Source: Mucilaginibacter terrae
Lineage (GTDB): Bacteria; Bacteroidota; Bacteroidia; Sphingobacteriales; Sphingobacteriaceae
Direction of reading: 5' to 3'
NCBI RefSeq assembly: GCF_031951985.1
Contig: NZ_JAVLVU010000001.1
Location: 868,001 to 932,000 of the forward strand
Length of the DNA stretch: 64,000 nt
Shown here piece by piece: positions 36,571-37,424 of this stretch. The position numbers and the translations under genes were made by a program. Each line of letters starts with the position of its first letter. The stretch's first letter is position 1. The notes beneath the pieces were generated by a model. The model was not told the DNA's origin. It did no database searches and was given only the letters and a program-made list of their open reading frames with translations.

Positions 36571-37392
36571 ATGAAACAATATCTCGACCTGATGCGCCAC
36601 GTGCTCGAAAACGGCGCCCAAAAACACGATCGTACCGGAACAGGAACTATCAGTGTTTTTGGTTACCAGATGCGCTTTAACTTAAAGGAAGGCTTTCCGT
36701 TGGTGACTACCAAAAAGCTTCACCTCAAGTCGATTATACATGAGCTTATATGGTTTTTAAGCGGCGATACCAACATCAAGTACCTTAAAGATAACGGTGT
36801 GCGTATATGGGACGAGTGGGCCGATGCCGATGGTAATTTAGGTCCGGTTTATGGTTACCAGTGGCGCTCATGGCCAACGCCCGATGGCCGCCATATTGAC
36901 CAGATCAGCCAGGTAATTAATCAACTGAAAAACAACCCGGATTCGCGCCGCATCATGGTTTCGGCCTGGAATGTTGCCGATGTGGATAATATGGCGTTGC
37001 CACCCTGCCACAGCTTGTTCCAGTTTTATGTTGAGCCCCCTAACCCCCTAAAGGGGGAACTAAAAGGCAAGTTGTCTTGTCAGTTGTACCAGCGCAGTGC
37101 CGATATATTTTTGGGCGTACCTTTCAATATAGCCTCATACGCCCTGCTTACCATGATGATGGCACAGGTATGCGATTTGGACTATGGCGATTTCATCCAC
37201 ACATTTGGCGATGCCCACCTGTACAATAATCACCTGGAGCAAACCCAATTACAATTGAGCCGTGAGCCACGACCGCTGCCTAAAATGAAAATTAACCCCG
37301 AGGTTAAGGATATTTTTGGCTTTAAGTTTGAAGATTTTAGCCTGGAAAATTACGAGCCATGGCCGCATATTAAAGGCGCAGTAGCGGTTTAA
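36571..37392 (+). CDS. thyA: Thymidylate synthase with a repeat-derived 9-residue insertion
   Basis: The 273-residue ThyA is colinear with the 264-residue Escherichia coli enzyme except for a net nine-residue insertion at about residues 155-165. Core motifs are [25 protein letters not shown], the catalytic Cys146 in [33 protein letters not shown] and HLYNNHLEQ. It methylates dUMP to dTMP using methylene-tetrahydrofolate, the dihydrofolate product being recycled by the adjacent folA product. The insertion [11 protein letters not shown] is encoded by a CCCCCT-AGGGGG palindromic repeat and lies in the turn after the active-site strand. All catalytic residues are intact, so activity is expected. 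Confidence 0.96.
37034..37062. repeat. CCCCCT-AA-AGGGGG palindromic repeat inside thyA
   Basis: The element reads agccccctaaccccctaaag followed by ggggaacta. Its core ccccctaaaggggg is a 6-base stem with 2-base loop, preceded by a direct copy of the left half (ccccctaa). It accounts for the net 27-base insertion in thyA and preserves the frame. A related degenerate copy follows thyA at 37390. Confidence 0.85.
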
Positions 37393-37424
37393 CCCCCCGG
37401 CCCCCCTGAAGGGAGAGTTTTAAC
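37391..37424. repeat. Degenerate copy of the CCCCCT/AGGGG repeat after thyA
   Basis: aaccccccggcccccctgaa continues as gggagagtttt, a decayed relative of the element inside thyA, beginning at the stop codon. It may double as a weak terminator. Confidence 0.7.

Follow-up and report, generated by a model that had tools for sequence, protein, structure and literature searches.

Palindromic repeats resembling REPs appear to have been captured recurrently in a tolerant β-hairpin turn of thymidylate synthase (ThyA), and then to have decayed or been exchanged: we give this reading roughly three chances in four. A dispersed 24-nt element, often present as head-to-head pairs, would enter thyA at the hairpin turn, a site where such additions may be nearly neutral; because the frame used (PPNPLKGE) has no stop, the enzyme would be lengthened and not broken. 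Capture would have happened more than once: many species have the repeat in this loop, or sequence resembling decayed remnants of it, and another family has a different palindrome there. Loop states would switch quickly, probably by decay together with the exchange of short tracts between thyA alleles.

The thyA gene lies at positions 36571–37392 on the forward strand of the window (the whole 64-kb stretch of DNA analyzed) and encodes 273 residues. Its assignment draws on the open reading frame, on the E. coli structures, on the NCBIfam profile NF002497 (491 bits against a cut-off of 327) and on Cys146, which is invariant in 45 aligned sequences. The original prediction, that the protein is colinear with the 264-residue E. 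coli enzyme save for about nine residues, is borne out by alignment with PDB 1aob: there is one gap, of exactly nine residues, and the extra residues are PPNPLKGEL (156–164). The extra DNA is, as was also predicted, the palindrome CCCCCT-AA-AGGGGG (CCCCCTAAAGGGGG), whose core, found by pattern search, occupies 37044–37057 within the 273-codon frame. The REP-like unit to which it belongs (CCCCCTAACCCCCTAAAGGGGGAA; 37036–37059, forward strand) is translated in frame +0 of its TAA variant as PPNPLKGE (residues 156–163). A repeat is thus present in the interval first proposed, 37034–37062, but the unit itself is slightly shorter, at 24 nt.

A second, slightly decayed copy, likewise anticipated, is found directly 3′ of the thyA stop codon (TAA, 37390–37392), at 37394–37417 on the forward strand (core 37402–37415, one mismatch). 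Its CCCCCCGG arm and GAGTTTTA tail are common to the genomic copy L035, and from its letters this post-stop copy looks real. Among 117 unique thyA sequences from the genus and its nearest relatives, two have a core (at least 12 of 14 positions) within 150 nt downstream of the gene.

The position of the insert in the folded protein was predicted by an AlphaFold2 single-chain model (45 aligned sequences, mean pLDDT 87.5). Residues 156–166 are modelled as an ordered turn between strands 147–155 and 167–178, a block with pLDDT of 93–94. The insert had been described as near the active site, which holds along the sequence but probably not in space: Cys146 is placed at the opposite end of the first, nine-residue strand, and from this strand geometry the insert would be distant from the nucleophile.

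The palindrome is one of a family dispersed through the genome. Exact cores number 23, against none for the reversed pattern that served as control. The window alone, searched with up to two mismatches, contains two matches against 0.95 expected, and 23 of 100 shuffles reach two; the repeat nature of the element therefore rests on the whole-genome count, the window by itself not being significant. From 22 copies in this genome and 30 in genome G127 we obtained a unit consensus of 24 nt, [GA]CCCCC[CT][AG][AG]CCCCCT[AG]AAGGGGGAG, with little conservation beyond it in either set. The features are those of REP-like palindromes in general: a palindromic unit, here of 24 nt, in the 20–40 bp range, many dispersed copies, mostly intergenic, and a predominance of head-to-head dimers. 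Among 34 own copies there are eight neighbor pairs less than 250 bp apart, every one of them head-to-head, and inverted pairs are spaced 63–188 bp. Across the genus the core load ranges from 0 to 115 per genome, with at least one core in 129 of 149 genomes.

When 30 own copies were set against long ORFs (frames open for 40 codons or more to each side of the copy), 26 fell outside and four inside. The four are distributed over three genes, namely thyA, radA and a gene matching TIGR02757, the last with a head-to-head pair. In all three the unit stands in frame in a conserved gene and is missing from homologues, as expected of an intragenic REP. The genome search suggested at the outset for the CCCCCT-AGGGGG element thus yields a dispersed family that is mostly intergenic and also in frame in three genes, and the view of the thyA insert as a small repeat read as protein in a conserved, presumably essential gene holds. 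Open frames and conservation in the remainder of ThyA are consistent with a protein that still works. That the unit arrived by insertion is inferred, and no target-site duplication was seen to accompany it.

The named genomes whose ThyA is nearest to that of the window point to Mucilaginibacter, and in this genus a ThyA match was obtained in 145 of 149 genomes. The longer loop is present in 101, 42 are without insert, and two are broken or partial. The matches span 819 bp in 99 genomes, 825 bp in two and 792 bp (the E. coli length) in 42; the remaining two are a frameshifted gene (G027) and a fragment (G113). The former (C1:3794162–3794984) is in three pieces with stops. These counts give no support to a simple insertion limited to one lineage: the longer loop is widespread, and within it the palindrome is gained and lost. 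Neither is the insert common to all Bacteroidota, given the 42 of 145 genomes that have none and the fact that, among the matches listed in a survey of the class, most ThyA proteins are of E. coli length.

Loop DNA from all 101 longer-loop genomes was scored against 23-nt variants of the repeat. Scores of at least 22 (repeat-identical or nearly so) were found in 22 genomes, intermediate scores of 18–21 in 15, and scores below 18 (ordinary) in 64; the lower-scoring loops mostly read xP(A/P)(D/N)xxKGET(K/R)G in ordinary codons. In two Mucilaginibacter genomes (G112 and G131) the loop is +11 and contains the usual repeat in a GG-spacer form. With the thyA copy excluded, the 22 repeat-type genomes contain 8–98 exact cores (median 43.5, none with zero) and the 64 ordinary +9 genomes 0–105 (median 27, ten with none), a difference with a Mann–Whitney p of 0.011, not corrected for relatedness. 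Many-copy genomes with an ordinary loop are common, so repeat load alone does not set the loop state.

Outside the genus, +9 loops were seen in at least 17 genomes of other genera of the family plus at least two of genus g16, in two Chitinophaga, in one Parapedobacter and, among the matches listed, in families f10, f52 and f53. Two members of genus g14 (L169 and L171) have a perfect core. Overall, +9 loops are frequent within the genus and scattered in other families, and most have no palindrome.

The palindrome-free loops of Chitinophaga, of f10, f52 and f53, and of most longer-loop Mucilaginibacter are alike in length and in a PxDxxKGE-like pattern, so an older +9 loop is possible. The loop (xPxDxxKGETxG) would then be an old feature of some Bacteroidota ThyA, overwritten by the palindrome in some lineages through template switching or conversion from genomic copies. 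We regard this as unlikely, although it accommodates a case in which a repeat allele is nested among ordinary +9 alleles with no change in length. That case emerged from a tree of rpoB and loop-less thyA for 29 genomes, picked for their repeat-type alleles and with neighbors included (G114 was dropped, having no rpoB). G082, with a repeat loop, is nested in a clade with G010, G001, G059 and G060, all of which read EPADASKGET (support 100/100 for rpoB plus thyA). On rpoB alone the alternative grouping of G082 is rejected (AU p = 2.6e-46); on thyA alone it is not (AU p = 0.072, above 0.05), the five-genome clade nevertheless receiving 100/98. The G082 assembly is a draft, with 87% completeness and 4% contamination. 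The repeat appears to have replaced an ordinary +9 loop in this genome, a conclusion that is strong on rpoB and weaker on thyA alone.

The sister genomes G126 and G127 differ at 3.1% of positions outside the loop against 14 of 36 bases inside it; in five closer pairs of like type, 1–5 of the 36 loop bases differ. G126 and G127 also show extra silent differences in the roughly 24 nt that follow the loop, with none such upstream. The same asymmetry is seen on a broader scale: in a comparison of 26 alleles scoring at least 20 with 57 scoring at most 16, repeat state is associated with the loop codons and with downstream codons 167–169 and 172 (counted from 0), and codons immediately upstream of the loop have no clear association with it. 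Silent codons downstream that are linked to repeat state fit a short exchanged tract; insertion of the unit would not by itself account for them. For an old, overwritten loop these data are awkward in three respects: the frame of the repeat would have to coincide exactly with a pre-existing P-x-x-x-x-K-G-E register, the differing tract runs about 24 nt past the repeat, and the two GG-spacer alleles are +11, not +9. Under recurrent capture the ordinary +9 loops may themselves be of repeat ancestry, with exchange between alleles as the probable route of switching; none of the sampled thyA genes was identified as the donor of the tracts switched in G127 or G082.

One further detail concerns window 37072–37092 and the equivalent codons of relatives: the serine three codons past the loop is encoded by TCC in none of 22 repeat-type alleles and in 23 of 64 ordinary +9 alleles. 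Near this serine the repeat-type alleles favor TTG and TAT, an association found downstream only.

It is also conceivable, if improbable, that selection retains the hairpin for a role at the DNA or mRNA level, such as adjusting how well the thyA message is translated or how stable it is, and that it is more than a tolerated piece of protein. At 4-fold sites of 19 repeat-type alleles a median of 0.54 differ outside the loop and 110 of 849 comparisons (0.13) inside it, but these alleles were selected by repeat identity and their mutual similarity is therefore partly circular and suggestive only. In 59 ordinary +9 alleles (score at most 16) 4216 of 6222 comparisons differ inside the loop. The association of repeat state with silent codons just downstream could likewise be taken to favor such a function. 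Against it, 64 of the 101 longer-loop genomes do with an ordinary loop and 42 genomes with no insert, and, folded as RNA, the element does no better than shuffles (z = −0.5), on which ground we rejected an RNA hairpin beyond what base composition gives.

That the repeat was inserted just once, ancestrally for the genus, and has since only decayed or been lost is less probable still. Intermediate alleles in 15 of 101 genomes, the small loop differences within the five close like-type pairs and a tree signal above that of shuffles are all compatible with it. On the thyA tree of 117 tips, the three loop states require 28 changes, where 300 shuffles average 35 and never fall below 31: the states are spread broadly over the tree and yet not at random. 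Whether the insert is present at all is strongly clustered: it needs 10 changes in one count and 23 in another, the latter to be compared with a mean of 68 in shuffles. A model without gains is, however, about 13–18 log-likelihood units worse than one with gains, and barring gain of the repeat from ordinary +9 loops costs about 16 log units with the repeat threshold at 22 or more and about 5 at 18 or more; these figures come from an imperfect optimizer, which gave overflow warnings and left one model where it started. The dependence on the threshold and the tree signal slightly reduce our confidence in recurrent capture. Together with the nesting of G082 among ordinary +9 genomes, the poor fit of the no-gain model led us to reject one old insertion with decay only. 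A chance run of C-rich and G-rich codons with no relation to a repeat, to which the unremarkable pair of matches within the window might have pointed, has a negligible probability and is refuted by the 23:0 genome count and by identity over 24 nt that includes arm and spacer.

Recurrent capture receives a separate illustration from G449, a genome of family f8, in which the DNA of a +11 ThyA loop includes another palindrome, CTCCCCCCAAGGGGGGGAG, whose stem is 8 bp long. Allowing at most one mismatch and counting overlaps, this palindrome has 32 forward and 40 reverse matches in its genome, against 3 and 1 for the control. At 15 loci examined it lies in an open frame (40 codons either side) in three: thyA (284 codons), a frame of 595 codons and one of 100 codons. 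In the 595-codon frame (L396) it is translated as SSPLGGDLKG.

The two other genes of the Mucilaginibacter genome provide parallels to thyA. RadA (TIGR00416, 591 bits, cut-off 403; L033:518–1954, G000:C1 about 3476051) carries the in-frame unit TPLPPEGGVSGYGGTG; the TIGR02757 gene (202 bits, cut-off 139; L024:1090–1992) carries a whole in-frame head-to-head pair (G000:C1 1942051 and 1942120). Thirty ORFs were read for each. The RAER-ILTETS loop of RadA holds cores in four of 18 genus members, three of them as pairs, and in none of 12 outside; within the genus this loop is highly variable and often filled by other sequence, and outside it is often short, being long in L323 and L334. For TIGR02757 a core of at least 12/14 was present in 10 of the 30. 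It lies in the loop after LE(D/E/S)AF in eight of 18 genus members (L343 with only 12/14); in one more of the 18, L346, the sole core is near the start of the stop-to-stop frame and possibly outside the gene. Outside the genus it is present in one of 12 (G449), whose palindromes in that loop differ in form. The contents of this loop in relatives include single units, pairs or, in some, other inserts.

In G127, where 30 of 93 copies were examined, the long-ORF test was passed by the thyA copy and by one in a 99-codon frame, which we take to be spurious. Few copies lie inside long ORFs and the loops nevertheless recur: in-frame capture is rare per copy and recurrent per site. Two to five of the six frames of the unit are open, depending on the spacer and loop bases. 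The TAA/AA variant found in thyA has only two, of which the one in use encodes PPNPLKGE; RadA copies are read in a PPEGG-type frame and second copies there as PPSGG or PPLGG, and TIGR02757 copies use PLKGE, PPSGG, LPLQG and SPFRG frames. So many usable frames suggest a filter on tolerance more than on one peptide.

Four RadA loops (L308, L309, L317 and L319) are filled with other peptides that repeat internally (SEVGSQKSEVGS, VGSKQLAVGS) and may be translated from further dispersed repeats. A repeat search with the odd RadA loop sequence AAGTCGGAAGTC matched two of 410 loci, both RadA.

More generally, and only tentatively, Bacteroidota ThyA, RadA and TIGR02757 proteins may possess ‘landing loops’ that are repeatedly refilled by whichever palindromic repeat is active in the host, turnover and exchange then generating loop diversity. 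If so, core DNA-metabolism enzymes would have a steady source of loop diversity, perhaps under selection. The roughly 100 species form a natural series from selfish DNA to protein at one loop of a well-studied enzyme, with stages of no insert, fresh repeat, decaying repeat and ordinary loop; it makes testable whether inserts are tolerated or used, and whether repeats are a general seed of length variation in surface loops. Going by the sequences, repeats of this kind seem to be a continuing source of new segments in working proteins.

In-frame intragenic REPs are already known (PMC3733652). As set out in that paper's main text, GTAG and CGTC REPs are short palindromes, mostly intergenic and predominantly head-to-head dimers; some are in frame within genes, many of these of DNA synthesis and repair, and different REPs occupy about the same recB site in two Xanthomonas species. 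The thyA unit is alike in its short palindromes, its head-to-head arrangement and its in-frame copies in DNA-metabolism genes. It differs in having no GTAG or CGTC tag (22 own and 30 G127 copies) and in its Bacteroidota host, and would therefore work like an intragenic REP from outside the two tagged superfamilies. The same main text names Bacteroidetes once, as holding CGTC repeats; thymidylate, radA, Pedobacter and Mucilaginibacter are absent from it, and we found in it no turnover over about 100 species. Within the open-licence literature we likewise found no earlier description of this host group, these loops or this turnover. Rickettsia palindromic elements, which also stand in frame in unrelated metabolic genes, are about 150 bp long in the account given by part of a review (PMC10969869), against 24 nt here; the likeness is one of description.

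REPINs and BIMEs associated with RAYT, as covered in part of PMC6006769, resemble the present family in two ways: it forms inverted pairs 63–188 bp apart, and there is a RAYT in the genome. They differ in that little is conserved here beyond the unit and that the RAYT is flanked, judged by eye, by another repeat. This RAYT (NF047646, 97.3 bits, cut-off 80; L016:1360–2090, G000:C1 about 3789400) is the one Y1_Tnp match in the genome, and its flanks hold GGCGCAAGTATGTAGGGCAG .. CTACTTGTGCC. We accordingly rejected it as the mobilizer of the unit, and the search of this genome for Y1 transposases gave no other candidate. A second palindrome subfamily in the same genome, CCCCTGCCCCTCTCAAGAGG, has a like arm-plus-hairpin layout (for example at G000 C1:1394956, 3715858, 4554967 and 4567889).
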